From Zhongshania aliphaticivorans (lineage in GTDB: Bacteria; Pseudomonadota; Gammaproteobacteria; Pseudomonadales; Spongiibacteraceae): a DNA stretch of 64,000 nucleotides. Every line of letters starts with the position of its first letter. Positions within the stretch are counted from its first letter, which is position 1. The translations under genes were made by a program, and so were the position numbers. The stretch is taken from contig NZ_CP014544.1 in assembly GCF_001586255.1 (NCBI RefSeq), positions 1,147,501 through 1,211,500 on the forward strand, given 5' to 3'. The notes under the pieces were generated by a model. It was not told the origin of the DNA. It did not search any database and worked only from the letters and a program-made list of their open reading frames with translations. Below, piece after piece: positions 28,220 through 63,460 of this stretch.

Positions 28220-28298
28220 ACATACCTTAATCACGCTGGTTGGTGCGTAAACCACCTAAAATGCCATCGCGATTTTAGATTGAATGCAGGAAATAATA

Positions 28299-35518: not shown

Positions 35519-37006
35519 TTACTTTTGCGCGGCGCTGAGGCCTGCGCGACGACCGAAATAGGTGACGTCACCTACCGACATGCCGCTGGCGTAGCCAGCG
35601 GCAGTGCGTGGTATTCCAGCGGTGGTTCGACCCGCAGCATAAAGTCCGGGAATAATGTCGCCGTCAGGATTAAGCACTTCGCCGCTGGCTAGGGTATCTA
35701 GACCGCCGAGGGTAAAAAACGGATAGAAGGGGCCGCGACCTAAGGTGCAATCCAAGGCCACATAGGGCGGTGTGAGTGGTCGGAGCCACGCCGCCGCTTT
35801 GTGAAACAAGGGGTCTTTGCCTTCACTGGCGCCAGCATTGTATTGGCTTATAGTGTGTTGCAGGCTACCTGCGGGTAATTCTAATTCTTGCTCTAACTCG
35901 ACTACGCTGTCGCCGGTTCCCGCCACCTGCGCACCGAGATAACTCATTTTCTCGTAGTCGCCATAGCCTTCAAAATCGGTAATAAAGTAAATGCGTTGGG
36001 CATTGCTTTGGGCCATTAAGGCGTTATAGCCAACACGGCCGTGATAGCAGTCTTCATTAATAAACCGCTGGGCCTTGTCGTTGATTAAAATACCGTAGGT
36101 AAGTGAGGCTGGGGGGTAATACGGCAGGCTGACAAAGCATTCGTGCATATTGGTGGTGCCAGCGCCCACTCCCATGCCCATGAGAATGCCGCTGCCGGTA
36201 TCGCCCGGATTGCCGATGGGAATTAGACCACGGTCAAAGGTGGGCGCGTATTTGCGCACCATGGCTTCGTTCATGCAGAAACCGCCGGCGCACAGTATGA
36301 CGCCTTTGCGGGCGCGCACGGCTTTTTCTTGTTGATCGATGCGCACTACGATACCTTCAACTTCACCCTTGTCATTGCTAATTAAGGTCAGTGCGCGGCT
36401 ATCGTAGTGGACGTCTACTTGGCGACTTTGTACCGCCTCAGTGAGAATCTTCATTAGTAGAGGGCCGCCGTTGTCGCCCTCTACTTCGAGGTTGTGGCCA
36501 CGGGGTACCGGCGTGGCATGCTCGGTAAAGGGATAGGCTTTTTCATTGCCAGTGAACAGCAGGCAGTCGTCGGTTAAGGCCATGATCGCCCGTTCTTTCA
36601 GCTCGCTCATTTTAAAGGGCACGCCAAGACCGATGAGCCACTGATAATGGTTGAGACTGTTTTCGCAGTAGTCGCGAATTTTACTGTCGTCGGCCTGATT
36701 GCCAAAACAGGCTTTCAGGTAATTCACCATATTCTCGGTGTCGTCGTGATAACCGCATGCTTTTTGGACTGGGGTGCCGCCATTACCGCCCATATAGATT
36801 TCAGCGCTAGACAGGGCCGTGGAGCCACCGCTGGCACTGGCTAATTCAAAAATAGTAACCTTGGCACCGGCGTCGGCCGCTTCTATCGCGGCAGCTGCCC
36901 CGGCGCCGCCGAAACCAATAATGGCAACGTCGGTTTCGATGTCCCAGTGCTGAATATCGCCGCTGTTACGGGGCTTGCTGGCAGTGGTTTTTTCTGTTGT
37001 CGTCAT
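35519..37006 (-). CDS. FAD-binding oxidoreductase, KstD/fumarate reductase family
   Basis: This is a 495-residue flavoprotein. The dinucleotide fold is AIIGFGGAGAAAAIEAADAG (about 29-48). ASGGSTALSSAEIYMGGNGGT is the family's FAD-binding loop, and RARKGVILCAGGFCMNE is typical of this superfamily. The C-terminal GLYAAGRTTAGIPRTAAGYASGMSVGDVTYFG closes the FAD site. Compared with the kstD-like gene at 28299 it is shorter and lacks the YPGPGSTLG segment, so it is not a classical delta1-dehydrogenase. Relatives are often annotated as 3-ketosteroid dehydrogenase-like or flavocytochrome-like, and the substrate is unknown. It is next to the TonB receptor but separated by a terminator. Confidence 0.8.
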   Translation of the reverse strand: MTTTEKTTASKPRNSGDIQHWDIETDVAIIGFGGAGAAAAIEAADAGAKVTIFELASASGGSTALSSAEIYMGGNGGTPVQKACGYHDDTENMVNYLKACFGNQADDSKIRDYCENSLNHYQWLIGLGVPFKMSELKERAIMALTDDCLLFTGNEKAYPFTEHATPVPRGHNLEVEGDNGGPLLMKILTEAVQSRQVDVHYDSRALTLISNDKGEVEGIVVRIDQQEKAVRARKGVILCAGGFCMNEAMVRKYAPTFDRGLIPIGNPGDTGSGILMGMGVGAGTTNMHECFVSLPYYPPASLTYGILINDKAQRFINEDCYHGRVGYNALMAQSNAQRIYFITDFEGYGDYEKMSYLGAQVAGTGDSVVELEQELELPAGSLQHTISQYNAGASEGKDPLFHKAAAWLRPLTPPYVALDCTLGRGPFYPFFTLGGLDTLASGEVLNPDGDIIPGLYAAGRTTAGIPRTAAGYASGMSVGDVTYFGRRAGLSAAQK

Positions 37007-37154: not shown

Positions 37155-39671
37155 TTAATACTCGTAAAACACATCAAGCCCGAAGGTGCGCGGTTCGCCC
37201 CAGATCACTGAGCGGTCAGCTTGGGGTAGATTGTCGACGGCGGTTAATTCGTATTCCGTGTCGAGCAGGTTCTTCGCCCATATGCCTGCACCTAGACGTC
37301 CGTCGGCAAAGGCGATGTCGCTTAAGCTAAGCCGCGCATTAACTAACTCGTACTGGCGCAAATGCGTATTCTTTACATTTTCAGCGCGGGAGCCACCGTT
37401 GCGCTCGTCCATATAGTTTACGCTGATATTCGCGCTACCGGTGCCCCAATCCGCTTGGAACAAAGTGTAATCAGCAGACAGAGTGAAGGAGTTTTCAGGC
37501 GCAGAGAAGAACACGAACTTATCTGAGGCATCGTTGCCGTTTATGTCAGTCGCTTTGGTTACCTCGGTATTGAGATAGGCGTAGTTGGCCATCAACAACA
37601 GCTCGCGGGTCAGCATAAACGTAATATCGGTTTCAAAGCCGTACATTTCTGCTTCACCGGCGTTGGTGACCTTGGTGTCTGCGACAGTGCCGGTCAGGAT
37701 AAAGTTTAATTGCATGTCTTCGTATTGGCTAAAAAAGACGTTGGCATTGATACGTAGGCGGCGATCCATCAGTTCGCTTTTTAGACCTAGCTCATACGAC
37801 GTGACGTATTCCGCGTCAAAGCCGTCTGCATAACCAAAGCCATAGTCATTGCCGTCGGTTGCGGGGCCTTGATTGCCGTCTTTTTGTGGGTCGCGGGTAT
37901 TAAAACCGCCAGACTTATAGGCTTCAACACGCTTGCCGTAAATATTGATGTCGTCAGTGATGTCATATTCCGCAACAAAGCTGAAGGAATCATTGCTGAA
38001 GTCTTGTGACGCGGGAATGCTATCAAAATTACGGCAGTCGGCGTTGAGTGGATTACTGCCACACTGAACAAAGGAGACGTCAATTGCGGTCAAGGCGGTT
38101 TCTGCGATCGTCATATCTCGCTGGAACTTAACCGTTTTACGTTCGTCCTCAGAGTGACGCGCGCCAAAAGTTAGGTGAAGACGTTCATCCAGTATTTTGG
38201 GTGTCCACGTAAACTGACCAAAAATCGCAGCGGCGCTGTTGTCGATGTCGTATTTCTGGCTGAGCATATTAACCGCGCGGAACGTCGTTAGCGGATCAGT
38301 AATGCCGCCTAGTAAGGCACCAATACCGGGAATGGCAGCGACCGAGGGGAGGCCGAGGTTTATCGGGCCGCTCAGCTGGTGATGCAGGGGCGTGTTGTCT
38401 TCCTGCGCGGTTTCTTCAAAGTAATAAGCACCCACAATATAGTCTACGCTGCCGTCGAAGGCGTCGCCGCTCAATTGCAGCTCATGGGAAAACTGCTCTT
38501 GAGAAACCTTGGGGTAGACCAGTGGGGTACATTGACCAGCACCAAGCACAAACTCTGCTGCTTGGCCGCAATATTCGTTGGAGTCTAGACGGAAGACTTT
38601 TTTGCTGGTGCTGCCATTGCCGTGGGGGTCTTGGCCGGGCTCTAGGCCTTTGCCACCGCCGAGGTCGGCGTAGGATTGGTCGTAAAGCTCACGGAAGGCG
38701 CCAATATATTTCAATTGAACGTGATCAAATTCCTTGGTGAGAGTAAAGGCATGCCCTTCGATATCAGTTGATGACTGTTCAAAATTTGCAATAGTCGAGA
38801 CGCTTTGTTGACGGCTCGGTGAGTAGCTACTGTAAGCGCTAGCGTCTACTAAATCGGCTTGGCTCCCTGATATCGGGGTGCGCTTTCGAACATGCTGATA
38901 CTGGCTGTTGTAATAGTCAAAATCAGATTTGTCGTAGGCGTAGTCTAGCGCGAGGGTGTCGCTAATATCCCAGCGTAAATCAAAGCGAAAGCCGCCGACA
39001 TCACGGTCGCCAAAGTCGCCACCGGGACCGTCGTTGGCAACGTGGCCGTCTTGCATGGTTTGCAGCGCCGCGAGTTTAACAGCCAAGGTGTCGGTTAGGG
39101 GGATGTTGACCATGGTCTTGGAAGTAAAGAGATCGCGATTGCCAAAGGTCAGCTTTTGCTTAAACTCAAGGGTGTCAGTGGTCGGCTTTTTGGTGATTAA
39201 GTTAATCGCGCCGCCGGTTGTGTTGCGACCATAGAGTGTGCCCTGAGGACCGCGCAATATTTCGATACGCTCCAAATCAGCAACATCCAAGGCGGTGCCG
39301 GTAGAGCGGGCAATGTAAACACCGTCTACGTATATGCCTACTGGTGGGTCTTGGGTTATTTGGGCGTCAGAAATACCAATGCCGCGAATAAAAATTCGTA
39401 AAGTGGCGTTATTAATTGGAAATGGTTCAATAGTGAGGCTGGGAACCTTAGAACCGATATCGCCTAAACTGCTAATACCTTCAATTTCGAGGCGTTCACT
39501 GCCAAAAGCAGTCAGTGAAATGGGCGTATCCTGCAGCGATTCAGCCTTCTTCTGGGCCGTCACAATCACCTCTTCGAGAGCAAACTTCTCTTGTGCCAGG
39601 GCGTTGGTGCCGATAGCTGACAAGCTGATGCCACTGATTGCTGCTATGAATTTTAGCCTTGTTTTGTTCAT
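37155..39671 (-). CDS. TonB-dependent receptor
   Basis: This is an 838-residue outer-membrane receptor. The signal peptide (1-26, ending NALAQ) is followed by a TonB box-like EEVIVTAQK and the plug domain. The plug includes PPVGIYVDGVYIARSTGTALDVADLERIEILRGPQGTLYGRNTTGGAINLITKKP. A 22-strand barrel follows, ending in the typical terminal aromatic pattern (GLDVFYEY). The sequence type (IYVDGVYI...GRNTTGGAIN) is the large proteobacterial group used for hydrophobic compounds such as steroids and aromatic molecules, not siderophore receptors proper. Its neighbours are KstD-like flavoproteins, and an operator-like repeat shared with the fadD3-like gene lies upstream, so steroid uptake is a reasonable inference. 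Confidence 0.93.
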   Translation of the reverse strand: MNKTRLKFIAAISGISLSAIGTNALAQEKFALEEVIVTAQKKAESLQDTPISLTAFGSERLEIEGISSLGDIGSKVPSLTIEPFPINNATLRIFIRGIGISDAQITQDPPVGIYVDGVYIARSTGTALDVADLERIEILRGPQGTLYGRNTTGGAINLITKKPTTDTLEFKQKLTFGNRDLFTSKTMVNIPLTDTLAVKLAALQTMQDGHVANDGPGGDFGDRDVGGFRFDLRWDISDTLALDYAYDKSDFDYYNSQYQHVRKRTPISGSQADLVDASAYSSYSPSRQQSVSTIANFEQSSTDIEGHAFTLTKEFDHVQLKYIGAFRELYDQSYADLGGGKGLEPGQDPHGNGSTSKKVFRLDSNEYCGQAAEFVLGAGQCTPLVYPKVSQEQFSHELQLSGDAFDGSVDYIVGAYYFEETAQEDNTPLHHQLSGPINLGLPSVAAIPGIGALLGGITDPLTTFRAVNMLSQKYDIDNSAAAIFGQFTWTPKILDERLHLTFGARHSEDERKTVKFQRDMTIAETALTAIDVSFVQCGSNPLNADCRNFDSIPASQDFSNDSFSFVAEYDITDDINIYGKRVEAYKSGGFNTRDPQKDGNQGPATDGNDYGFGYADGFDAEYVTSYELGLKSELMDRRLRINANVFFSQYEDMQLNFILTGTVADTKVTNAGEAEMYGFETDITFMLTRELLLMANYAYLNTEVTKATDINGNDASDKFVFFSAPENSFTLSADYTLFQADWGTGSANISVNYMDERNGGSRAENVKNTHLRQYELVNARLSLSDIAFADGRLGAGIWAKNLLDTEYELTAVDNLPQADRSVIWGEPRTFGLDVFYEY

Positions 39672-39731
39672 GACTGCCTCTTGATGTCTTGGCGCATTAT
39701 CGCGATCTATTGATGTTTATATTTATTAATT

Positions 39732-39757
39732 CGTAATTATATATCTATTATATTACG
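39732..39757 (-). promoter_or_regulatory. Operator candidate CGTAAT-N14-ATTACG upstream of the TonB receptor
   Basis: This is an inverted repeat with 6-bp arms and a 14-bp spacer, located 61-86 bp upstream of the receptor start. The same arms and spacer occur upstream of the fadD3-like gene (49801-49826). The flanking bases TGCG/CGCA are partly shared. This suggests one dimeric regulator for both genes. Confidence 0.5.
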
Positions 39758-39963
39758 CATAAATTGCTATATGTGATTTAGGTTACAGTGTTGTTACTTT
39801 GGGATCTTACCATAGCTAGGTGTTGCTTGGTGTGAAATACATGAGATTTTTTTTAGATTTTATTCAGTGATACTGCCATAGCAGTATTAGATTAGTGGTT
39901 TTACTCAGTCTAATCGCTTTTCTATGTTGACGGTGAGTATTAGTGCGAGTCGATAAGGCTGGT

Positions 39964-48636: not shown

Positions 48637-48877
48637 ACGTCTCTCCGTGATGTTTTATCGTGGCGTGCTAAGTAGCGAGAAACACGCTAATGAATTTATT
48701 GGACAGGCCAGCCCAGATAAGTTCTATGTAGAAAATTCATCTTAGCCCAGTATAGTCAAATTCGAGCAAAGCCTGTGCCATTGATGCTAGCTCACCGTCA
48801 TTTTACGCAAGAATCGGGTGGTAGGATGTCGAGTCCATGGGCAAACTGAGAACACGACAATAAAGGTGCTAGCGCCA

Positions 48878-49729: not shown

Positions 49730-49795
49730 GAATTAGGCTTATTGTCGACGTCGGATCATTTTAGCGCAGGGTGGTTTAAATTGTAGTGATGGCTT

Positions 49796-49831
49796 AAATG
49801 CGTAATTTAGATTGCCGTAAATTACGCATTT
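49796..49831 (+). promoter_or_regulatory. Perfect 14-bp inverted repeat upstream of the fadD3-like gene
   Basis: AAATGCGTAATTTA (49796-49809) and TAAATTACGCATTT (49818-49831) are exact reverse complements around an 8-bp spacer. Inside is CGTAAT-N14-ATTACG, identical in arms and spacing to the site before the TonB receptor. It lies 3 bp before the -35 candidate of the next gene, which suits an operator. A terminator for the Ada-like gene is less likely because only a short pyrimidine run follows. Confidence 0.65.
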
Positions 49832-49834
49832 CTC

Positions 49835-49863
49835 TTGTCGTGGCTCGCGCATCCCCCTAGACT
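49835..49863 (+). promoter_or_regulatory. Candidate promoter of the fadD3-like gene
   Basis: TTGTCG (49835-49840) and TAGACT (49858-49863) are separated by exactly 17 bp. The gene starts at 49902. The inverted repeat at 49796-49831 ends just upstream of the -35. Confidence 0.45.
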
Positions 49864-49901: not shown

Positions 49902-51533
49902 ATGTTGCTGGAAAACTCACCGCAAAATACCACTATGCCGCTGACTCTACCGAGGCTTTTCGGGTGGGCCGCGCAGCAATTTGGCGCTAAAGTTGCCATT
50001 CGCGAAGCGGGTCGCGACATTTCTTATACCGCTCTCAACGATTTACGCCGGTGTGCTGGCCGTGCCTTTATGGCAATGGGGCTTGGTCATGGTGACCGGG
50101 TGGCCATTTGGGCGCCAAACAGTGCCGAGTGGATCGTGGCCGCGGCGGGCGCTCAGTCAGTAGGCGCTATTCTTGTGCCACTGAATACCCGTTTGCAGGG
50201 CAGCGAGGCCGCCGATATATTGGCTCGCGCTGGCGTTACTGTGCTGCTTACTGTAACGGAGCTAGAAAAGGGTGAGCCGCTGGCGATGCTAGCGGACCAA
50301 GCTCTGCCGAATTTGCAGCAGCGAATTTTGCTGCCGTCTACTGCCACAGGCAGTGTTGCTACGGCAATAAGCTGGGCAGATTTTTTGGCAAGCGCTTCGC
50401 CGCAAGACGACGCCAAATTCATTGCCGCCGAGCGGGCCGTAAATCCCTTTGATAGCGCCGATATGCTGTTCACCTCGGGTACCACTGGCAAGGCCAAGGG
50501 CGTCTTGTGCAGCCATGAGCAGAACATTCGGGTATTCCAGAGTTGGAGTGCGACGGTTGGGCTGCGCAGCGACGACAATTATTTAATTGTGAATCCCTTT
50601 TTCCACTCTTTTGGTTATAAAGCCGGGTGGTTGGCGGCAATTATCAGTGGCGCGACCATTTTGCCGGTGGCGAAGTTCGATAAGCGCAGCGTGTTGGAGA
50701 CCATTGAGCGCGACAAAGTGACGATGTTGCCGGGCGCACCCTCGCTGTATGAAATGCTCTTGAATGCACCAGAGCGTGGTGACTACGACTTGTCGAGCCT
50801 GCGTCTGGGCGTCACGGGAGCCGCGTCTGTGCCGGTGCAGCTGGTGCGGGATATGCGAGATATTCTCGGATTTGAAACCGTGGTTACCGCCTATGGCTTG
50901 ACTGAGTCCACTGGCGTGGTCAGTATTTGCCGCCCAGAGGACGAGCCAGAAACCATTGCGAGCACCTCGGGGCGCGCGATTGAGGGCGTCGAGTTGATCT
51001 GCGCCAATCCCAACACCGGCGAAGAAGTGCCTCGCGGTAGCGAGGGCGAGGTTTGGCTGCGAGGCTATAACGTGATGCAGGGCTATTTTGATATGCCTGA
51101 AGCCACCGCCGAAGCCATTACTGCCGACGGCTGGTTGAAGACTGGCGATATTGGCGTAATGGACGAGCGTGGCTATTTGCGTATTACCGATCGTTTGAAA
51201 GACATGTACATTATGAACGGCGAAAATGTATACCCCGCCGAAGTTGAGAAAGTCTTGTACGGCTTGCCTGGGGTTGCACAGGTCGCGGTCATTGGCGTGG
51301 CCAAGGCACCGCAGGGCGAAGTGGGTATGGCCTTTGTGGTGAAAAAGACAGCCAGCGATTTAAGTGCGCAGGCGGTAAGCGAATATTGCGTCCAGCACTT
51401 GGCTAGGTATAAGTGCCCCTTTTACGTTGAGTTTGTCGAGGCTCTACCGCTAAATGCCTCGGGCAAAGTGTTGAAAACGGAATTGAAAACCCTAGCCGCA
51501 GGTCTGTTGGGCGGTAAAAACCAGAATAGCTAA
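49902..51533 (+). CDS. fadD3: FadD3-like acyl-CoA ligase
   Basis: This is a 543-residue AMP-forming ligase. Core motifs are MLFTSGTTGKAKGVL (AMP/ATP loop), TAYGLTESTGVVS, and GWLKTGDIGVMDERGYLRITDRLKDMYIMNGENVYPAEVE. The catalytic Lys lies in NASGKVLKTELK. The sequence resembles FadD3, which activates the two-ring steroid intermediate HIP with CoA and opens the ring C/D pathway. That identity is inferred from overall similarity, the nearby HIP operon 4.5 kb downstream, and the operator shared with the TonB receptor. A general medium-chain acyl-CoA ligase remains possible. Two AsnC regulators follow 11 bp downstream. Confidence 0.75.
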   Translation: MLLENSPQNTTMPLTLPRLFGWAAQQFGAKVAIREAGRDISYTALNDLRRCAGRAFMAMGLGHGDRVAIWAPNSAEWIVAAAGAQSVGAILVPLNTRLQGSEAADILARAGVTVLLTVTELEKGEPLAMLADQALPNLQQRILLPSTATGSVATAISWADFLASASPQDDAKFIAAERAVNPFDSADMLFTSGTTGKAKGVLCSHEQNIRVFQSWSATVGLRSDDNYLIVNPFFHSFGYKAGWLAAIISGATILPVAKFDKRSVLETIERDKVTMLPGAPSLYEMLLNAPERGDYDLSSLRLGVTGAASVPVQLVRDMRDILGFETVVTAYGLTESTGVVSICRPEDEPETIASTSGRAIEGVELICANPNTGEEVPRGSEGEVWLRGYNVMQGYFDMPEATAEAITADGWLKTGDIGVMDERGYLRITDRLKDMYIMNGENVYPAEVEKVLYGLPGVAQVAVIGVAKAPQGEVGMAFVVKKTASDLSAQAVSEYCVQHLARYKCPFYVEFVEALPLNASGKVLKTELKTLAAGLLGGKNQNS

Positions 51534-51544
51534 GGTAAATAACG

Positions 51545-52048
51545 ATGACAGAACTCGAAGGCGACGATCATTTACGCCCCGCGCCATCTCAGCATATGGA
51601 TGAGGTCGACCACCGCATAGTCGCTCATTTGCGCCGAGACGGTCGCATGGCTTTTAAGGCCCTGGCTACTGAATTGAGTTTGACCGAGGCCACGGTGCGT
51701 TCACGAGTACGTCGCCTTGAAGAGGGTGATAGCTTGCGGGTTGTGGCGGTGACGGACTACGAGGCGGTCGGCTATTCCATGATGCTGGCGGTGGGGATTC
51801 AAGTTGAAGGGCGTCCCGCTGATGCTGTTGCAAATGATTTGGCGGCCTTCCCTGAGGTGTTTTCGGTGTGCCAGGTGGTGGGCACCTTGGACATTGAAAC
51901 CTTGGCGGTGGCTAAGGATCAGGAGAGTCTTACCGAGTTGCTGGTGCGTTTAGGTGCGGTGCCGGGCGTGCGCAAATTGCAGCCGTCGGTGGCGCTGGAT
52001 GTGTTAAAAAATCAATCGAATTGGGTGCCCTTTGGGCACGGTGTTTAG
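51545..52048 (+). CDS. Lrp/AsnC family regulator (first of a tandem pair)
   Basis: This is a 167-residue regulator. The N-terminal winged helix-turn-helix (about 17-70) contains MDEVDHRIVAHLRRDGRMAFKALATELSLTEATVRSRVRRLEEG. A C-terminal RAM/ligand-binding domain (about 75-155) follows. AsnC-type proteins usually sense amino acids or other small acids and act as oligomers. It starts 11 bp after the fadD3-like gene and is almost certainly co-transcribed. It shares the VRSRVRRLEE recognition-helix style with its neighbour but differs enough to be a separate paralogue. Confidence 0.88.
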   Translation: MTELEGDDHLRPAPSQHMDEVDHRIVAHLRRDGRMAFKALATELSLTEATVRSRVRRLEEGDSLRVVAVTDYEAVGYSMMLAVGIQVEGRPADAVANDLAAFPEVFSVCQVVGTLDIETLAVAKDQESLTELLVRLGAVPGVRKLQPSVALDVLKNQSNWVPFGHGV

Positions 52049-52058
52049 GGCGGTGACC

Positions 52059-52529
52059 GTGGCTAAGAAGCAATTAGACGAACTCGACCGTAAAATTCTT
52101 GATGGTTTGGCCCAAGACGCCCGGATTAGCAATCGCAAAATTGCCGCCGATTTAGGTATTACCGAGGGCACCGTGCGCAGCCGCATCAAGCGGATGGAGA
52201 GCGAGGGGCAGGTGCGGATCACCGCCATGACCAATATCGCTCGCTTGCGCAATCCGACTCTTGCTTATATTTGGGTAGAGGTTGAGCGCAGCGCGCAGTG
52301 CGATGATGTCGCCGAACAACTTGCGGCCGTGCCTGAGATTGGTTTTGTCGGAAAAATGCTGGGCCGCTCGGATATTTTGGCGATTACCCTCGTGCGAGAT
52401 AATGCCGAATTAGCGCACTTCTTACACAGTAAAATCACCGGTTTGCCCGGCGTGCGCCGTACTGAATGCTCCTTAGGGGTGAATTTTGTTAAGCATGACT
52501 ATCGTATGAGCCGTATTGTCGACGGCTGA
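52059..52529 (+). CDS. Lrp/AsnC family regulator (second of a tandem pair)
   Basis: This is a 156-residue paralogue of the preceding gene. The helix-turn-helix is DELDRKILDGLAQDARISNRKIAADLGITEGTVRSRIKRMESEG and the RAM domain follows (IARLRNPTLAYIWVEVERSAQ). The frame is open from a TTG at 52032. The starts most likely used are GTG at 52059, which has AGGG eight bases before it, or GTG at 52053. Either lies just after the first regulator's stop. The pair may form mixed oligomers that control the fadD3-like operon and perhaps the HIP operon; this is a guess from position. Confidence 0.85.
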   Translation: MAKKQLDELDRKILDGLAQDARISNRKIAADLGITEGTVRSRIKRMESEGQVRITAMTNIARLRNPTLAYIWVEVERSAQCDDVAEQLAAVPEIGFVGKMLGRSDILAITLVRDNAELAHFLHSKITGLPGVRRTECSLGVNFVKHDYRMSRIVDG

Positions 52530-55670: not shown

Positions 55671-56082
55671 GCTAAGGTTCAGACTTTTCGATATCCTCAT
55701 TGTCGCGGCGCAGCCTTCGCGCCCGCGGCTGTGCTCAATCTTCAGTGCTTGATCCGGCGGCAATACTCCCCTGCGCTGTCGTTGCATAGGCCGCAAGGTC
55801 ATTGACACGCCCACAGTAAGTGGGTGATTTCTCCTCATTTGGCTCCTCTATTAACTCTTTCGGTTAAAACGTCTGCTGCGAAACAAGCCTTGTGGGTGGG
55901 TATTGCTATTCACGATGACGATAATCCTTAATCTAGAGTTAAATATTGCAATAATTTATGTTTTGCGCATTTAATTGGTGTTATATTTACGTATATCGTA
56001 ATTCAGGCCGGTCGTCGACTTTCTTTTTGGGCGTCCTGCCGTTACACATCATTCCCGTATTGGGTGAATAAAAGGAGCGCTC
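55671..56082. other. 412-bp control region before the ring C/D operon
   Basis: No gene is seen. The part from about 55920 is AT-rich and promoter-like. Two small dyads occur: ACAAG-C-CTTGT at 55883-55893, and TTACG-TATAT-CGTAA at 55988-56002, about 80 bp before ipdA. The second uses the same CGTAA half-site as the repeats before the TonB receptor and fadD3-like genes but in the opposite orientation, so it is not the same site. Confidence 0.55.
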
Positions 56083-56958
56083 GTGAATAAGCAAATGAGT
56101 CTGCAGGAGATGGTTGGTCAGTTGCGAGACGGCATGACCATTGGTATTGGTGGCTGGGGCCCGCGTCGCAAGCCGATGGCGCTGATTCGCGAAATCCTTA
56201 AATCCGACTTGAAAGATTTAACAATCGTTGCCTACGGTGGTGCCGATGTCGGCATGCTGTGCGCAGCGGGTAAAGTACGCAAATTGGTGTTTGCCTTTGT
56301 GTCCTTGGATTTCATTCCCTTGGAGCCCTATTTTCGGGCAGCCCGCCAGAGCGGTGAATTGGAGGTGATGGAGATTGACGAGGGCATGATGCTCCTCGGC
56401 TTGCGCGCTGCAGCGTGGGGTTGCCCGTTTATTCCTACCAAAGTGGGCTTGGGCACCGACGTCATTAAATTTAATCCCGATATAAAAGTCATCGACAGCC
56501 CTTACGACGACAAAGAGTGGGTTGCTATGCCTGCACTCAAGCTTGATGCCGCGCTAGTTCACGTTGATCGCGCCGATGTGCGCGGCGTTTGTCAGATCAA
56601 AGCACCGGATCATCATATGGATGACTGGTTTGTGCGCGCCGCTGCTAAAACCTATGTGACGTGTGAGGAAATCGTGGAGGCCGATGCCTTTGCCGAGCCG
56701 GCCGATGCTCGTCTTGTCTTTTGGGAGCGCAATTTCACTAGCGGCGTTGCACTGGTTCCCGGTGGCGCCCACCCGTCATCGTGCAGTCCCAATTACGGTT
56801 TTGATATTCCCCATTTCCAGGAATACAACGCCTCGGCCAAAGAGGGTGGATTTGCCGCCTATTTTGACAAATACATTAAAGACAGTAGCGAAGAAGAATA
56901 TCAGGCCAAAGTTGGCGGCTTAGATGCCATTCGTAAACTGCCCCAGCCCGTCTATTAA
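56083..56958 (+). CDS. ipdA: IpdA-like CoA-transferase family ring hydrolase, alpha subunit
   Basis: IpdA (291 residues) pairs with IpdB. In characterised actinobacteria the complex opens the last steroid ring (ring C) of COCHEA-CoA by a retro-Claisen-type hydrolysis, although the fold is that of class I CoA transferases. The N-terminus MSLQEMVGQLRDGMTIGIGGWGPRRKPMALIREIL closely resembles Mycobacterium IpdA. Glu100 in MEIDEG is the likely counterpart of the catalytic Glu reported for IpdA. GTG at 56083 follows AAAGGAG; ATG at 56095 is a fallback. It heads the operon. Confidence 0.9.
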   Translation: MNKQMSLQEMVGQLRDGMTIGIGGWGPRRKPMALIREILKSDLKDLTIVAYGGADVGMLCAAGKVRKLVFAFVSLDFIPLEPYFRAARQSGELEVMEIDEGMMLLGLRAAAWGCPFIPTKVGLGTDVIKFNPDIKVIDSPYDDKEWVAMPALKLDAALVHVDRADVRGVCQIKAPDHHMDDWFVRAAAKTYVTCEEIVEADAFAEPADARLVFWERNFTSGVALVPGGAHPSSCSPNYGFDIPHFQEYNASAKEGGFAAYFDKYIKDSSEEEYQAKVGGLDAIRKLPQPVY

Positions 56959-56981
56959 TCGGTTAACAGGAGAGAATTGAA

Positions 56982-57785
56982 ATGAGTACACCTGCAAGCG
57001 ATTACAGTTTGGCGGAATTGATGATTTGCGCTAATGCCCAGGCCTATGCCAATGACGGCGAAGTATTGGTTACCGGCATCGGCGTTTTGCAGCGCCTTGC
57101 GGCAAGCCTAGCGATGTTGACTACCAATCCCGGCATTATGATGACCGACTCGGAAGCATGGATTTTATCCACGCCGAATCCCGTCGGTAAACGCCCCGCC
57201 GATTTTGTGCAAATGAACGAAAACTGGATGGGCTTTAGCCGCATTTTTGACAATGTGTGGAGCGGTCGTCGTCACCTTACTGGTGGCCCGACCCAGATTG
57301 ATCGTTTTGGTCAGTCGAATATTTCTGCCATGGGCGGCGACTACCAAAAGCCCAAAGTGCAAATGTTGGGTGTGCGGGGTTTCCCCGGTAACTCTATCTG
57401 CCACGCCAATAGCTATATGGTGCCTGCTCATGGCAAGCGGGTCTTTATCGAAGGTGAGTGCGATGTGGTCTGCACCATCGGCTATAACCCCGAGCGCCTG
57501 CCTAAGGGTTATAGCTTCGACGAGATTGATTTGCGCTGCGTCTACACCAATTTGGGTGTATTCGATTTTAACGGCCCGAATCGCCAAATGCAGATTGTTA
57601 GCCTGCATCCCGGCGTTAGCGTAGAAGAAGTGATCGAGAACACCGGCTTTGAAGTGCATGTGCCGGCTTCGATTGCCGTAACTACCGCGCCAACCGAGGA
57701 GCAGTTAGACATTATTCGGCAAATGGATCCTCATAATCTGCGCAGCAAGCAGCTGAAGGATAATCCGCCGGGAGTGCGCTTGTGA
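56982..57785 (+). CDS. ipdB: IpdB-like CoA-transferase family ring hydrolase, beta subunit
   Basis: IpdB (267 residues) is the second subunit of the ring-C hydrolase. The segments YSLAELMICANAQAYANDGEVLVTGIGVLQRLAASLAMLT and GGDYQKPKVQMLGVRGFPGNSICHANSYMVPAHGKRVFIEG fit the beta subunit of this CoA-transferase branch. It starts 23 bp after ipdA with an AGGAGAG site, so subunit synthesis is likely coupled. A hairpin of the GTCGGACGTC family follows. Confidence 0.9.
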   Translation: MSTPASDYSLAELMICANAQAYANDGEVLVTGIGVLQRLAASLAMLTTNPGIMMTDSEAWILSTPNPVGKRPADFVQMNENWMGFSRIFDNVWSGRRHLTGGPTQIDRFGQSNISAMGGDYQKPKVQMLGVRGFPGNSICHANSYMVPAHGKRVFIEGECDVVCTIGYNPERLPKGYSFDEIDLRCVYTNLGVFDFNGPNRQMQIVSLHPGVSVEEVIENTGFEVHVPASIAVTTAPTEEQLDIIRQMDPHNLRSKQLKDNPPGVRL

Positions 57786-57877: not shown

Positions 57878-58957
57878 ATGTCAAAATTACTTAACACCCG
57901 CATCACCGAACTCCTCGGCTGCCGCTACCCTGTTATTCAAACGGCGATGGGCTGGGTGGCTGATCCTAATTTGGTGGCCGGTACAGGCAATGCCGGTGGT
58001 TTCGGTTTTCTTGCTGGTGCGACGATTCCTCCTGCCCAAATGGAAGCCGATATTCTCAAAGTAAAGTCGCTTACCGATGCGAACTTTGGCGTTAACTTTC
58101 ATATGTATCAGCCGAACGCGGCGGAGATTGTAGACCTTGTGATTAAACACAAGGTTAAGGCAGTGAGTTATTCCCGCTCGCCGGGTAAAGAAATGGTTGC
58201 CAAGTTAAAAGACGCCGGTGTGGTGTGTATGCCAACCGTCGGTTTGCCTAAGCACGCCATCAAAGCAGTAGAAATGGGCGCTGACGCAGTCACGGTTCAG
58301 GGCGGCGAGGGTGGTGGTCACACCGGCTCGGTACCCACAACATTATTATTGCCCCTGGTGGTTGATGCCGTGGGCGCACAAGTGCCGGTGCTCGGCGCGG
58401 GCGGATTTAAAGATGGTCGCGGCCTAGTCGCGGCTATGGCTTTCGGGGCCGATGGCATTGCCATGGGCACCCGCTTTTTATTAACGAAAGAAAGTCCGGT
58501 TCCGGATGCGACGAAGCAGCGTTATCTCGATTGCAAAAACCCCGCCGAGATTATCGTTTCTCAAGCGCTCGACGGTATCCAGCAGCGCATGATTCTCAAC
58601 CGGTTTTTAGGTGAGTTAGAGCGCGCTGGCAACCTCAAAAAATTAGTGATCGCACTGCGCAATGGTTTGGCATTTCGTAAATTCACCGGCGCCAGTATTT
58701 TTGGTTTACTGAAATCTGCGCTGGCAATGAGTAAAGACGGTGACCTTACGCCAGCGCAAGCCATTATGTCGGCCAATGCACCAATGATTATCCAAAAGGC
58801 CATGGTTGATGGGCGGCCTGATGACGGGGTTTTACCGTCTGGTCAGGTCGCTGGTGTCATTGACCAAATTCTGAGTTGTGAAGAATTAATTAGCGGCCTG
58901 GTAGTAGAAGCCGAAGCCCAATTACAGCGTCTGTGCACGCAGGGAGCAAACCAATGA
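57878..58957 (+). CDS. ipdC: IpdC-like flavin oxidoreductase (nitronate monooxygenase fold)
   Basis: This is a 359-residue FMN enzyme with a TIM-barrel of the 2-nitropropane dioxygenase/NMO type. The N-terminal RITELLGCRYPVIQTAMGWVADPNLVAGTGNAGGFGFLAG is typical. AVTVQGGEGGGHTGSV and VPVLGAGGFKDGRGLVAAMAFGADGIAMGTRFLLTKES form the flavin phosphate site. In the HIP pathway IpdC acts on a hydroxylated ring-C/D CoA thioester. The gene overlaps the next start by 4 bp (ATGA). Without this neighbourhood one would call it only an NMO-family protein. Confidence 0.88.
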   Translation: MSKLLNTRITELLGCRYPVIQTAMGWVADPNLVAGTGNAGGFGFLAGATIPPAQMEADILKVKSLTDANFGVNFHMYQPNAAEIVDLVIKHKVKAVSYSRSPGKEMVAKLKDAGVVCMPTVGLPKHAIKAVEMGADAVTVQGGEGGGHTGSVPTTLLLPLVVDAVGAQVPVLGAGGFKDGRGLVAAMAFGADGIAMGTRFLLTKESPVPDATKQRYLDCKNPAEIIVSQALDGIQQRMILNRFLGELERAGNLKKLVIALRNGLAFRKFTGASIFGLLKSALAMSKDGDLTPAQAIMSANAPMIIQKAMVDGRPDDGVLPSGQVAGVIDQILSCEELISGLVVEAEAQLQRLCTQGANQ

Positions 58958-59706
58958 GTCTGCCATTTTCTACCCGTATTGATAGTGGGATTGCCGAAGT
59001 TATTTTTAATCATCCGCCCGTTAATGCCTTTAACAGTGCGGGTTGGTTGGCGATCGCTGCCGAGCTAAACGCCTTAGGTGAAAACGCCGACGTGCGAGCA
59101 ATTATTATCGCCGCTGAAGGCCGCGGTTTTTGCGCAGGCGTCGACATAAAAGAATTGGCCGCCAATAGCGCCATGATCACCAGAGTGAACAAAGGTAATT
59201 ACGATACCTTTAAAGCCATTCATCGCAATCCTAAGCCGGTTATCGTTGCAGTGCACGGCTTTGTATTGGGTGGCGGCATCGGTATTAGCGGCGCAGCCGA
59301 TGTTTTAGTTGCCTCGGAATGCGCAACTTTCGCGGTGCCCGAAGTAGATCGCGGCGCCATGGGCGGCGGCGCGCACTTGCAGCGCATGTTCCCTGTGCAA
59401 AAGGTTCGCTATATGTACTTCACCGGTGAGCCTATCGACGCTCAAGAAGCTTACCGCCTGGGTGCAGTCGAAAAGGTTGTTCCCCGTGACCAGCTGCTCG
59501 ATACCGCCAGGGACATCGCCCGCAAAATTGCCGCGAAATCACCGCGCATGGTGCAGCTTGCTAAAGAAGCACTTAACGGCATTGAAGACGGCAACCTAGA
59601 AGATAAATACCGCTGGGAGCAAGGCTTTACCCAGGAAGCTTATGCAGATCCAGATTCCCAGGAAGCCAAAGACGCGTTTGTAGAGAAGCGCGACGCGAAA
59701 TTCTAA
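58954..59706 (+). CDS. echA20: EchA20-like crotonase family ring hydrolase
   Basis: This is a 250-residue crotonase. In the known pathway EchA20 opens ring D by hydrolysis rather than hydrating an alkene. The first oxyanion-hole segment is GRGFCAGVDIKEL (57-69), the second GFVLGGGIGISGAADVLVA, and the usual acid/base region reads FAVPEVDRGAMGGGAHL. The start is ATG at 58954 inside the ipdC stop, with AGGGAG before it; the frame is open 7 codons upstream. Role is inferred from operon position between ipdC and the acyl-CoA dehydrogenases. Confidence 0.87.
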   Translation: MSLPFSTRIDSGIAEVIFNHPPVNAFNSAGWLAIAAELNALGENADVRAIIIAAEGRGFCAGVDIKELAANSAMITRVNKGNYDTFKAIHRNPKPVIVAVHGFVLGGGIGISGAADVLVASECATFAVPEVDRGAMGGGAHLQRMFPVQKVRYMYFTGEPIDAQEAYRLGAVEKVVPRDQLLDTARDIARKIAAKSPRMVQLAKEALNGIEDGNLEDKYRWEQGFTQEAYADPDSQEAKDAFVEKRDAKF

Positions 59707-59720
59707 GGTAATGGGAGATG

Positions 59721-59780
59721 CTAGACGGGAGATGGGAGACGCAAAAGAATGTGGTTTTGCGTTTTCCGTCTCCCGCCTAG
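59721..59780 (+). repeat. Intercistronic hairpin between echA20 and the acyl-CoA dehydrogenase
   Basis: Two 26-nt arms, 59721-59746 and 59755-59780, pair with only four mismatches around an 8-nt loop. The left arm begins CTAGACGGGAGATGGGAGAC. The sequence differs from the GTCGGACGTC family but sits in the same kind of place. Confidence 0.85.
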
Positions 59781-59805
59781 CGTACTGCGAATAACGGGAT
59801 ACATC

Positions 59806-60978
59806 ATGCAACTCGAATACACCGAACAACAAAACGCCTTCCGCAAAGAAGTCCGCGCTTGGCTGGCGGCTAACGTGCCTACAGAGCCGCTACAGAGCTT
59901 CGACACCGAGCTTGGTTTTCAGCAGCACCGCGAGTGGGAGGCCAAGCTCTACGAAGGTCGCTGGGGCATGATTACCTGGCCGGAAGAAATGGGTGGTCGC
60001 GGCGCCGATTTATTGCAGTGGCTAATTTTTGAAGAAGAGTATTACGCCGCGCGGGCGCCGCTGCGGGTGAACCAAAACGGTATTTTCTTGCTTGGCCCCA
60101 CCTTAATGGAATACGGCACTGACGAGCAGAAAAAGCGTTTTTTAAATGGCATGGCGACCGGTAAAGATATCTGGTGTCAGGGCTGGTCTGAGCCCGATGC
60201 TGGTTCCGATATGGCGGCCATTCGATCTACCGCAACATTAAGCGAAGACGGTAGCCATTACATTATCAACGGCCAAAAAACCTGGTCTACCCGCGCGGTG
60301 TGGGCGGATTGGTGCTTTGGTATGTTTCGCACCGATCCAGCCTCAGAGCGCCATAAAGGCCTGACGTTTATTCTGGTGCCGCTGGAAACTGAAGGCATTA
60401 CCGTGCGGCCAATCCCCCAATTAGATGGCTTGCCAGGCTTTGCCGAGATCTTTTTTGATAACGTCAAAGTACCCGTCGACTGCCGCTTAGGTGGTGAAGG
60501 CGAGGGCTGGAATGTGGCCATGGCCACCGCCGGATTTGAACGCGGCTTAATGCTGCGTTCGCCAGCGCGTTTCCAAGAAACCGCTAAGCGTCTAGTGAAT
60601 TTATACAAAGCCAATCAGGAATCTGCTGATCAGGATCCCGCCGTACGCGACGCCGTATTGCGCGCCTATATGGATGCCGAGGCCTACGCACTAACAACCT
60701 ACCAAACCGCCTGTCGCTTAATACAGGGCGGCAAAATTGGCGCAGAGGCGTCGACCAATAAAATATTTTGGTCTGAGCTAGATCAGCAAATGCACGGCTT
60801 GGGTTTGAAAATTTTGGGTGCCCGCGCTGAATTACTGCCCCATGCGCCAGATGCCGGTGAAGTGGGTAGTTGGTTAGACGGCTGGTTGTTTGCGCAGTCG
60901 GGGCCGATATACGCAGGTACCAATGAAATACAACGCAACATCATCGCCGAAAGATTGCTGGGAATGCCGCGGAAGTAA
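59806..60978 (+). CDS. Acyl-CoA dehydrogenase, IpdE1-like alpha subunit
   Basis: This is a 390-residue flavoenzyme. WCQGWSEPDAGSDMAAIRS and WSTRAVWADWCFGMFRT form the FAD region, and IYAGTNEIQRNIIAERLLG is the usual C-terminal motif. There is an Ala where medium-chain enzymes have the catalytic Glu (YEGT in those). Glu245 in GFERGLML lies at the position used by isovaleryl-CoA dehydrogenase and by steroid-type heterotetrameric enzymes, so it is the probable base. With the next gene it should form an alpha2-beta2 enzyme like IpdE1-IpdE2. ATG at 59806 (MQLEYTEQQ) is preferred over 59749. Confidence 0.87.
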   Translation: MQLEYTEQQNAFRKEVRAWLAANVPTEPLQSFDTELGFQQHREWEAKLYEGRWGMITWPEEMGGRGADLLQWLIFEEEYYAARAPLRVNQNGIFLLGPTLMEYGTDEQKKRFLNGMATGKDIWCQGWSEPDAGSDMAAIRSTATLSEDGSHYIINGQKTWSTRAVWADWCFGMFRTDPASERHKGLTFILVPLETEGITVRPIPQLDGLPGFAEIFFDNVKVPVDCRLGGEGEGWNVAMATAGFERGLMLRSPARFQETAKRLVNLYKANQESADQDPAVRDAVLRAYMDAEAYALTTYQTACRLIQGGKIGAEASTNKIFWSELDQQMHGLGLKILGARAELLPHAPDAGEVGSWLDGWLFAQSGPIYAGTNEIQRNIIAERLLGMPRK

Positions 60979-60979
60979 C

Positions 60980-61097
60980 GCAGTGATCTTTTTGCACGCT
61001 GGCTGCGTTAAAAATATGCTCGGTTGGTCACGTATTAAATATACGCTCTCGCCCTGCGCGTATTTTTGCCTTGCCAGCGCACAAAAATCTGCGCTGC
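60980..61097 (+). repeat. Long imperfect palindrome between the two acyl-CoA dehydrogenase genes
   Basis: The left arm (about 60980-61020, with TTTTTGCACGCTGGC and AAAAATATGC) pairs with the right arm (about 61056-61097, with GCGTATTTTTG and GCCAGCGCACAAAAA). This gives a long stem with a few bulges and a loop of about 35 nt. It occupies most of the 168-bp gap between genes that otherwise look like one enzyme unit. It resembles mobile palindromic repeats rather than a terminator. Confidence 0.85.
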
Positions 61098-61146
61098 TTG
61101 GTTTGGTAATTGGTGATGAGCGAAAGTAAATAGAATAGGTAACGGA

Positions 61147-62202
61147 ATGGATTTTACATTTAGCGAAGATCAGTTGTTATTTCAGGAATCGGTAAAAGAC
61201 TTTCTGATTAATGAAGTGACGCCAGAAACAATCCGCGCCGCTTGGCAGACGGATACCGGTCGCAGTGACGGCCTTTGGCAGCAGTTTGTCGAACTGGGTT
61301 TAACAGGGATCACTGTGCCAGAAGCATTTGGCGGCTTGGGCATGAATGAATTGGATTTTGTGCTGCTGGCCCAAGAGGCGGGTTATGTCGCGTTGTCTGA
61401 GCCATTGGTACACAGCGCTTTGGTCGCGGTGCCGACTATTTTACAATTAGGCAACAGCGAGTTTTCAGCCCAATGGTTGCCGAAAATTGCGGCAGGTGAA
61501 GCCAAGGTCGTGGTTGGTTTAGCGTTGAATGCTCTGGTAGAAGACGCGCATATTGCTGATTTACTGATTCTGGAAAAAGACGGCGCCTTGTATGCCGTAA
61601 CGCCAGCGCAGGCAAATCTGCGCTATAACGAATCGATAGACCTTGGTCGTAAATTATTTGCGGTGGAGTTTGATGTTGCGGCGGCCACTAAGCTCGCCGA
61701 CGGCGAAGCTGCTCAGCAAATAATTAACGGCGCACTGAATCGTGGCGCCCTTGCCGCAGCGGCGCAGGCACTTGGCGCCACCCAGCGCATGATTGATATC
61801 TCCGTTCAGTACACCTCCGAGCGCAAGCAATTCGGTGTGGCTATCGGCACCTTCCAAGCCGTAAAACACCATATGGCCAATATCGCTTATAAACTCGAAT
61901 ACGCCAAAACCCCGGTATATCGCGCAGCTTATGCACTGGCCAATGACCTCAGCAGTGCTGGGCGCAATGTCAGTCACGCCAAAATTGTCGCCTGCGAAGT
62001 CGCCGATTTAGCAGCAAAAAACAGCATACAAGTCCACGGCGCCATGGGTTACACCTGGGAAATGGATTTACATATTTTTATGAAACGCGCCTGGGCATTA
62101 AACAGCAGCTACGGCACTGCGGGATTTCATAAACAGCGTTTAGCCGCTTATGTATTTGGTGATGACGCGCTATTGGGGGCGGGGAATACCTTTGCAGCGT
62201 GA
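61147..62202 (+). CDS. Acyl-CoA dehydrogenase, IpdE2-like beta subunit
   Basis: This is a 351-residue, somewhat short acyl-CoA dehydrogenase. SERKQFGVAIGTFQAVKHHMANIAYKLEYAKTPVYRAAYAL and VHGAMGYTWEMDLHIFMKRAWALNSSYG are recognisable. The C-terminal YEGT-type loop with the catalytic Glu is replaced by SSYGTAGFHKQRLAAYVFG. That is expected of a noncatalytic beta subunit that completes the FAD site of the partner. It follows the alpha gene, separated only by a palindrome. Confidence 0.87.
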   Translation: MDFTFSEDQLLFQESVKDFLINEVTPETIRAAWQTDTGRSDGLWQQFVELGLTGITVPEAFGGLGMNELDFVLLAQEAGYVALSEPLVHSALVAVPTILQLGNSEFSAQWLPKIAAGEAKVVVGLALNALVEDAHIADLLILEKDGALYAVTPAQANLRYNESIDLGRKLFAVEFDVAAATKLADGEAAQQIINGALNRGALAAAAQALGATQRMIDISVQYTSERKQFGVAIGTFQAVKHHMANIAYKLEYAKTPVYRAAYALANDLSSAGRNVSHAKIVACEVADLAAKNSIQVHGAMGYTWEMDLHIFMKRAWALNSSYGTAGFHKQRLAAYVFGDDALLGAGNTFAA

Positions 62203-62210
62203 GTTGCTTG

Positions 62211-62294
62211 GTCGGATGTCTGCCGTCGGACGCACGTCGAGCCCTATATAAACTAGTAATTACACGTCAGACATCAGACCTCCGACGTCCGACT
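62211..62294 (+). repeat. Intercistronic hairpin repeat, copy 2 (GTCGGACGTC family)
   Basis: GTCGGATGTC near the left end pairs with GACGTCCGAC near the right end (one mismatch), with further GTCNGAC motifs inside. It lies between the ipdE2-like gene and the thiolase gene. The thiolase ribosome-binding site (AAAGAGGAA) is just outside. Confidence 0.8.
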
Positions 62295-62311
62295 AACAAA
62301 GAGGAATAATC

Positions 62312-63460
62312 ATGGCTGAAGCCTATATCGTTGATGCAGTACGCAGTCCAACTGGACGCCGCAAGGGTGGTCTTGCTCATGTGCACGGCGCAGATTTGGG
62401 TGCCCATGTTTTAAAAGCCATCGTCGAGCGCAATGGTATTCCGGATAATGAATACGACGATGTGATCTTTGGCTGTGTCGACGCCATCGGTCCATTGGCT
62501 GGGGATATTGCCCGCAGTGCGTGGCTGGCGGCTGGTTTGTCTGACGAGGTGCCGGGCACCACGATCGATCGGCAGTGTGGTTCTTCGCAGCAGTCGGTGC
62601 ATTTTGCCGCGCAGGCCATTATGTCCGGCACCATGGACGTGGTGGTCGCGGGTGGCGTGCAGACCATGACCCAGATTCCGATCTCTTCGGCAATGACCGC
62701 GGCGATCCCAATGGGTTTTAGCGATCCGTTCTCGGGTTCAACTGGCTGGGTAGCGCGTTATGGCGCCGAGCCACCAACCCAGTTTAAATCAGCGCAAATG
62801 ATTGCTGAGAAATGGGGCTTCTCCCGTCGGGATCTTGAAGAGTATTCGTTTGAGTCTCACCAGCGGGCCTTGCGCGCCATTGCTGAAGGCCGTTTTGATC
62901 GGGAAATCATTCCTTTTGGCGACGTCAAAATGGATGAGACGCCACGCAACTCCAGTCTAGAAAAAATGGCTGAGCTGGATTTCCTTTTCGGCTGCGACAA
63001 AGTGACCGCCGCCGTATCGAGCCAGACCTGTGATGCGTCTAGTGCAATGTTATTGGTCAGCGAGGACGCCTTAAAGCGCTATAACCTAACGCCCCGCGCT
63101 CGTATTCATCATATCAGCGTGCGCGCCGACGACCCGATTTGGATGTTAACAGCGCCGATTGCCGCAACTGCTTACGCCTTAAAGAAAGCCGGTATGTCGA
63201 TGCAGGACATTGATCTTGTTGAAATCAATGAAGCCTTCGCGTCAGTGTCTATGGCCTGGTTAAAAGAAACCGGCTACGACCACGCTAAAACCAATGTTAA
63301 CGGTGGCGCCATCGCCCTTGGTCATCCACTGGGTGCCACCGGCACCAAACTTATGACCACGCTATTGCATGAGCTCGAGCGCACTGGTGGCCGCTACGGC
63401 CTGCAGACGATGTGCGAAGGCGGCGGGCAGGCGAATGTAACAATTATCGAGAGACTTTAG
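62312..63460 (+). CDS. fadA6: FadA6-like thiolase
   Basis: This is a 382-residue thiolase. The nucleophile is Cys89 in DRQCGSSQQ. His338 in GGAIALGHPLGATG and Cys368 in CEGGGQAN complete the triad. Thiolases cleave 3-ketoacyl-CoA with CoA. FadA6 is the thiolase encoded with ipdAB in actinobacteria and acts after ring opening. The N-terminus MAEAYIVDAVRSPTGRRKGGL fits ATG at 62312. The last base of its stop codon is the first base of the third GTCGGACGTC repeat. Confidence 0.9.
   Translation: MAEAYIVDAVRSPTGRRKGGLAHVHGADLGAHVLKAIVERNGIPDNEYDDVIFGCVDAIGPLAGDIARSAWLAAGLSDEVPGTTIDRQCGSSQQSVHFAAQAIMSGTMDVVVAGGVQTMTQIPISSAMTAAIPMGFSDPFSGSTGWVARYGAEPPTQFKSAQMIAEKWGFSRRDLEEYSFESHQRALRAIAEGRFDREIIPFGDVKMDETPRNSSLEKMAELDFLFGCDKVTAAVSSQTCDASSAMLLVSEDALKRYNLTPRARIHHISVRADDPIWMLTAPIAATAYALKKAGMSMQDIDLVEINEAFASVSMAWLKETGYDHAKTNVNGGAIALGHPLGATGTKLMTTLLHELERTGGRYGLQTMCEGGGQANVTIIERL

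Follow-up and report, generated by a model that had tools for sequence, protein, structure and literature searches.

Genes and palindromic elements in the window

The window analysed here is a stretch of 64,000 nucleotides from Zhongshania aliphaticivorans (bases 1147501-1211500 of contig 1). It contains a gene for a fadD3-like acyl-CoA ligase followed by two regulator genes of the Lrp/AsnC family, a TonB-dependent receptor gene, and a gene set that resembles the HIP ring C/D set of the KstR2 regulon (PMC5380842; this and all other papers given by PMC number are cited from extracts of their text). The relevant features and the three predicted operators are as follows.

35519..37006, minus strand: FAD-binding protein of the PRK07121 type, downstream of the receptor (NF005510, 677 bits, cut-off 481)
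37155..39671, minus strand: TonB-dependent receptor (Pfam Plug)
39726..39763, no strand: predicted operator 3, TTCGTA-N18-TACGCA at 39730-39759, between the TonB receptor gene and the divergent fabV
49795..49832, no strand: predicted operator 1 (38 bp), TGCGTA-N18-TACGCA at 49799-49828, upstream of fadD3-asnC1-asnC2
49835..49863, plus strand: putative fadD3 promoter, -35 TTGTCG at 49835-49840, 17-bp spacer, -10 TAGACT at 49858-49863
49902..51533, plus strand: fadD3-like acyl-CoA ligase, HIP-CoA synthetase-like (NCBIfam NF005801, FadD3 family, 664 bits, cut-off 657)
51545..52048, plus strand: asnC1, candidate regulator of the Lrp/AsnC family (Pfam HTH_AsnC-type and AsnC_trans_reg; TVRSR in the HTH)
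52032..52529, plus strand: asnC2, candidate regulator of the Lrp/AsnC family (Pfam HTH_AsnC-type and AsnC_trans_reg; TVRSR in the HTH)
55960..55997, no strand: predicted operator 2, TGCGCA-N18-TACGTA at 55964-55993, upstream of ipdA, found with a profile built from fadD3 sites only
56083..57785, plus strand: ipdA-ipdB-like genes (Pfam CoA_trans for 56083-56958; ipd names by context and homology)
57878..63460, plus strand: ipdC/NMO, echA20-like, acyl-CoA dehydrogenase, IpdE2-like and thiolase genes, the remainder of the HIP ring C/D cluster (Pfam, NCBIfam)

AsnC1 and AsnC2 are 29% identical to each other, and both score above the cut-offs of PF13404 (the AsnC-type HTH, N terminus) and PF01037 (the C-terminal RAM or AsnC_trans_reg ligand domain). 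Translation of asnC2 may start a little downstream of 52032. AsnC1 has its nearest named relative in Z. antarctica (99% identical), and the best-matching solved chains were PH1519, which we take to be FL11, for AsnC1, and 7fby and PH0140 for AsnC2. The FAD-binding protein beside the receptor is related to ketosteroid dehydrogenases. No Pfam match of its own was found for the ipdB-like gene (56982-57785), no ipdA or ipdB model matched, and the IpdE2 model matched below its cut-off; the gene order ipdA-ipdB-ipdC-echA20 is kept in relatives. An Ada-like protein, in which an AraC-type HTH is combined with an O6-methylguanine methyltransferase domain, is encoded at 48818-49729 and ends just before the fadD3 operator.

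The sequence at 49796-49831 is AAATGCGTAATTTA-N8-TAAATTACGCATTT, the perfect 14-bp inverted repeat that a first-pass annotation of this DNA had described, and 39732-39757 reads CGTAAT-N14-ATTACG, with the identical arms and spacer that the annotation had also reported. These two exact copies are the only ones in the 4,204,359-base genome. With up to two mismatches the pattern has 9 matches in the window against 2.5 expected, a number attained in none of 100 shuffles, while with up to one mismatch it is not enriched over the whole genome (10 places against 20 in a reversed control). Since the pattern was not enriched genome-wide at one mismatch, conservation had to decide, and a loose consensus scan alone would have revealed no regulon.

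Comparison with relatives sets the register of the motif at TGCGTA-N18-TACGCA, so that the palindrome first described is a real conserved one with its arms slightly out of register. The original consensus (up to one mismatch) was dropped as a regulon test because of this shift. The refined consensus, again with up to one mismatch and summed over 21 genomes, was only modestly enriched (130 against 96 control places), and a profile was therefore used instead. In operator 3 the second base of the left half-site deviates (TTCGTA for TGCGTA). The site before ipdA was absent from the first-pass annotation. One exact TGCGTA-N18-TACGCA in Z. antarctica falls within a thioesterase-like open reading frame; we presume it to be a chance match and left it aside.

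Conservation of the element and co-occurrence with the AsnC pair

Within the family Spongiibacteraceae, an AsnC1 match was found in 17 of 21 genomes, and GCGTA-N18-TACGC stood before fadD3 in every one of the 17 loci of the family that have the AsnC pair, the window among them, with a spacer whose sequence varies. The first-pass annotation had named poor conservation in related genomes as an observation that would speak against its motif, and the element proved to be kept throughout these loci. G019, a genome of the same genus, retains fadD3, ipdA and the rest without the AsnC pair and without the operator. On contig 7 of that genome fadD3 and the ipd cluster are present, and the AsnC pair is missing between them.

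The ipdA site scored at least 18 in 11 of 16 family genomes and 8.6-9.5 in three (weak in G010, G011 and G013), and nothing was found in two (G001 and G003). In G020, G002 and G013 the region upstream of ipdA has an extra single TGCGTA half-site about 62-64 bp downstream of the operator, nearer ipdA (counted by eye), which a larger complex might contact in addition. At the TonB receptor, the window genome and Z. antarctica (G006) have a strong site, G010, G011 and G020 have one scoring 14-18, and G002 and G019 have none. In G009 the receptor is missing at this place and a perfect copy lies upstream of the FAD enzyme; no site was found upstream of the FAD gene of G008, G007 or G004. By this comparison the link to the TonB receptor is less conserved than the other two. 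Among the 30 of 52 receptor-like matches whose upstream regions were covered, unlinked TonB-receptor paralogues of G016, G008 and G009, all genomes of the same genus, carry the site (scores 30.3, 24.3 and 21.7) some 170-195 bp before the estimated start, those of G004, G012 and G005 score 16-18.5, and the remaining unlinked ones score below 9.

Across the order, an AsnC1 match of E 1e-28 or better was present in 33 of 390 genomes. We took 19 loci outside the family, of which 17 remained after one without upstream sequence (G179) and one without fadD3 beside the pair (G035) were removed, and found CGTA-N18-TACG before fadD3 in 15 of the 17. The exceptions were G070, with a near match only, and G095, with the pair and no operator. 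For G307, which had no FadD3 match at the cut-off, the ligase was found by tblastn and its start was assumed for the operator count. Of the 34 pair-bearing loci in both groups together, 32 thus have the core before fadD3, against 1 of 20 control fadD3 loci from genomes without an AsnC1 match (G019 included). For the control, 20 fadD3-like loci were hand-picked from the higher-scoring end; G019 not counted, 44 genomes combine a FadD3 match with the lack of an AsnC1 match, and 19 of these were represented. One of the 20 loci (G277) had no upstream sequence; of the other 19, only G050 has the core, in a contig that ends inside fadD3, and G019 completes the 20 that were counted. Fisher's test of 32/2 against 0/18, with G050 and one further negative omitted, gave p = 4e-12, a value that is too small because related genomes are not independent observations.

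Site concentration and spacing in two bacterial classes

We built a 38-bp profile from 14 non-redundant fadD3 sites alone and ran it over 695 kb (the window, 20 kb of G019 and the surroundings of the locus in each of 16 relatives), and found 33 matches scoring at least 17, against a mean of 0.05 (maximum 1) for 20 column-permuted profiles. The ipdA and TonB sites of the window were both recovered by this profile. Conservation in relatives and the genome scan described next support the proposal of the first-pass annotation that the fadD3 and TonB receptor promoters share an operator.

A second, sequence-only model was built from 44 rows, namely 22 sites in both orientations. The 22 were drawn from 27 sites by omitting near-duplicates and one further ipdA site; they include some ipdA and TonB/FAD-gene sites and exclude the TonB-paralogue sites of G008, G016 and G009 and all alphaproteobacterial sites. 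In a scan of the 21 family genomes, 150 first-look candidates per genome were scored fully (of 1614 in the window genome). Among these 150, the window genome has E below 0.01 at three places only, at 39.7, 49.8 and 56.0 kb, all of them in the window and preceding the TonB receptor/FAD-enzyme pair, fadD3 and ipdAB, respectively; the next-ranked place has E 1.26. In the four family genomes without the AsnC pair, the 150 candidates scored in each gave one place at E 4.55 in one genome and none at E 5 or better in the other three. Single weak places elsewhere (E 0.3-1) were seen in G005, G006, G008, G009 and G016, and one place at E 0.001 on another contig in G012.

A phylum-wide search of 398 genomes for AsnC1 gave three matches of E 1e-25 or better, which were the window genome, G035 and G668. 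The last is labelled as belonging to the same phylum and not to the same order, and its fetched stretch has 63% G+C; its likeness to a Novosphingobium locus suggests that it is a sphingomonad or another alphaproteobacterium. In a plasmid search, AsnC1 relatives were found in 31 records, mostly of Sphingobium and Novosphingobium, many with twin genes. No alphaproteobacterial site had gone into the second model, with which we scanned the complete G668 genome (3.2 Mb) and two complete plasmids, scoring every candidate. In G668 all matches up to E 5 lie at 132-192 kb of contig 2, around an AsnC pair at 191 kb, and in the 1.33-Mb plasmid of Novosphingobium sp. KACC 22771 all matches lie at 775-866 kb, around a pair at 810 kb. 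In the Novosphingobium ES2-1 plasmid, one of three places is near AsnC genes (247 kb) and two are far from them (529 and 616 kb, E 0.06 and 0.21). Relatives of ipdA, ipdB, ipdC, KstD-like and TonB-receptor genes are present as well in the stretches from G668 and KACC 22771. The profile found 8 sites in 100 kb of G668, 11 in 80 kb of KACC 22771 and 3 in 40 kb of ES2-1, where 30 permuted profiles gave on average 0.03, 0 and 0 sites, respectively.

Ten sphingomonad loci from the 31 plasmid records were covered, and six of the ten have at least one site scoring at least 12 within 8 kb. No site scoring at least 12 was found within 8 kb of the AsnC pair in the other four (L262, L263, L282 and L283). 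The HTH of the second protein has TIR instead of TVR in all four site-less loci, while the six site-bearing loci have TVR in five and TIR in one (L279). At the ES2-1 locus (L277, plasmid p1, 247.4 kb) the operator precedes an acyl-CoA-ligase/amidohydrolase/Rieske/amidase run about 5 kb from the twin-AsnC pair, in a stretch with no ipd relatives. L279, on a plasmid of Sphingobium sp. TomMM7A, has twin AsnC genes beside annotated hsaC and diseco-hydrolase genes; a single operator copy is located between hsaC and a gene for an acyl-CoA dehydrogenase. A scan of viral contigs found no AsnC2 relatives.

The spacing of the half-sites is fixed in both sets of sequences. CGTA-Nk-TACG with k = 18 occurs 46 times in 996 kb of gammaproteobacterial DNA and 12 times in 180 kb of G668 and KACC 22771, while any other k from 4 to 33 gives at most 17 and 2, respectively, and only spacing 18 stands out.

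Proposed regulation by the AsnC pair and alternative readings

We propose, with a probability of about 0.8, that the palindrome is the operator of the twin Lrp/AsnC regulator encoded just behind fadD3. The half-sites are 24 bp apart centre to centre, and the usual site of one Lrp dimer is roughly 15 bp. The element thus departs from the compact Lrp/AsnC operator of about 15 bp per dimer, a difference that concerns the operator and not the protein family. Because this distance is wider than a one-dimer site, two dimers must be assumed, and AsnC1 and AsnC2, probably as a heteromer of two dimers, would recognise the two TGCGTA half-sites. Such a complex would control three transcription units in Zhongshania, namely fadD3-asnC1-asnC2, which would amount to autoregulation, the ipdAB-ipdC-echA20 cluster, which serves the last two steroid rings, and the unit of TonB receptor and FAD enzyme. 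The inducer would be a steroid degradation intermediate, for example HIP or its CoA thioester, and the AsnC1/AsnC2 complex would govern HIP (steroid ring C/D) catabolism together with uptake, the role that KstR2 has in actinobacteria.

The direction of control is suggested by the promoter geometry at fadD3. In 28 of 32 fadD3 loci a TTG-type -35 starts 5-6 bp after the operator and is followed by a 17-bp spacer and a TANNNT -10; this call took the best-fitting combination when offsets of 3-8 and spacers of 16-18 were allowed, and had no shuffle control. The first-pass annotation had placed the repeat just before the -35, which agrees with this best-fit offset. A strict sigma-70 scan of the window's fadD3 promoter gave no match. 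A position just upstream of the -35 is typical of activators. Consistent promoter geometry was also sought at ipdA, the TonB receptors and the alphaproteobacterial sites, and none was found; since the geometry is constant at fadD3 only, we infer activation for fadD3 alone, where we somewhat favour it over repression.

On the other hand, the AsnC pair may act as a repressor that keeps the promoters shut until it is released by a steroid intermediate, in the manner of KstR2, and we hold this to be a tentative but serious second reading. KstR2 represses the same pathway step (PMC6678751, PMC5380842), and at ipdA and the TonB receptor, where no consistent promoter follows the operator, the operator could overlap the promoter. 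It is the activator-type position of the fadD3 operator that speaks against repression.

Another reading is that the operator belongs to a different regulator, for example of the TetR, AraC or LysR type, and that the AsnC pair merely travels with fadD3. The first-pass annotation had expected a TetR, AraC or GntR gene beside a copy of the motif, and the candidate directly downstream of fadD3 is instead the Lrp/AsnC pair; no TetR model matched any of the 20 window proteins scanned (35.5-61.0 kb). Split palindromes of such length occur with other regulator families too, and G095 has the pair and lacks the operator. The Ada-like gene with its AraC-type HTH lies just upstream of the fadD3 operator in the window. 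Of 16 relatives, 8 have it at this place too, and in the other 8, all of which have the operator, it was not seen there. Gene tracing in the relatives was confined to window genes, and an unrelated regulator gene there could therefore be missed. Against this reading, G019 lacks the pair and the operator together while fadD3 and ipdA are retained, and the sites surround the AsnC pair in the differently arranged clusters of G668 and KACC 22771. We regard it as improbable.

That two palindromes in AT-rich intergenic DNA happen to match by chance has a negligible likelihood, for although the original pattern with up to one mismatch is no commoner than its reversed control and the refined one recurs exactly within a Z. 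antarctica reading frame, the conservation across families, the peak at spacing 18 only and the permuted-profile controls argue against it, and for the fadD3 site the comparison with relatives refutes it.

Control by the AsnC pair, our preferred reading, has a counterpart in mycobacteria and Rhodococcus, where the TetR-family regulator KstR2 controls one regulon of HIP ring C/D genes including fadD3, ipdAB, ipdC and fadA6, with HIP-CoA named as its ligand (PMC6678751, PMC5380842, PMC8399759). As in that regulon, HIP ring C/D genes appear to share one operator here (the fadD3 and ipdA sites). Unlike KstR2, the candidate regulator is an Lrp/AsnC pair, the operator is different (TGCGTA-N18-TACGCA, against the CAAG...CTTG type given for KstR2 in the first-pass annotation, which had rightly set its motif apart from KstR and KstR2 sites), and the predicted regulon includes a TonB receptor. 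TonB receptors have been implicated in steroid uptake, and a review states that KstR1 and KstR2 homologues are absent from bile-acid-degrading Proteobacteria, whose regulatory mechanisms are still largely unknown (PMC8399759). The proteobacterial regulators of steroid catabolism described in Comamonas testosteroni, TeiR/TesR and HsdR, are of LuxR-type/kinase and LysR type and not of AsnC type (PMC6678751, PMC8399759). Isolates of Spongiibacteraceae and Halieaceae grow with cholesterol (PMC5790920).

An adjacent Lrp/AsnC pair inside a steroid cluster is also found in Sphingobium sp. Chol11, whose bile-salt cluster has two contiguous Lrp/AsnC genes; the extract of PMC12882949, the one paper noting such twin genes that our searches of open-licence literature brought up, comments on amino-acid metabolism and gives no operator, targets or test. 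The extracts of PMC10653915, PMC6498646 and PMC6429209 contain nothing on AsnC control of steroid genes, and in the extracts of open-licence literature consulted we found no published description of the operator. AsnC1 and AsnC2 have the HTH and RAM ligand domain of the feast/famine regulators Lrp, AsnC and FL11. They differ from these in being two paralogues side by side, in their predicted split palindrome with half-sites 24 bp apart, and in a ligand that would be of steroid type and not an amino acid.

The analysis puts forward two candidate regulators with an operator and target promoters, together with a spacing rule that spans two classes. A wider generalisation is that an obligate heteromer of twin AsnC proteins acts on TGCGTA-N18-TACGCA, senses an acid or CoA ester derived from steroids, and is the general counterpart of KstR/KstR2 in Proteobacteria, common to marine Gammaproteobacteria (mainly for the HIP branch and uptake) and sphingomonads (at many steroid-cluster promoters); we consider the chances of this to be evenly balanced. 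The operator could also be used as a signature when genomes are searched for steroid regulons and the uptake receptors that belong to them.

The window encodes a further FAD enzyme at 28284-30011, similar to 3-ketosteroid-delta-1-dehydrogenase (555 bits to PRK12844, below the cut-off of 789), and no operator match was found before it among the 150 of 1614 candidates scored fully in the window genome. The operator-rich clusters of G668 and Novosphingobium KACC 22771 contain relatives of this enzyme (41-42% identity).
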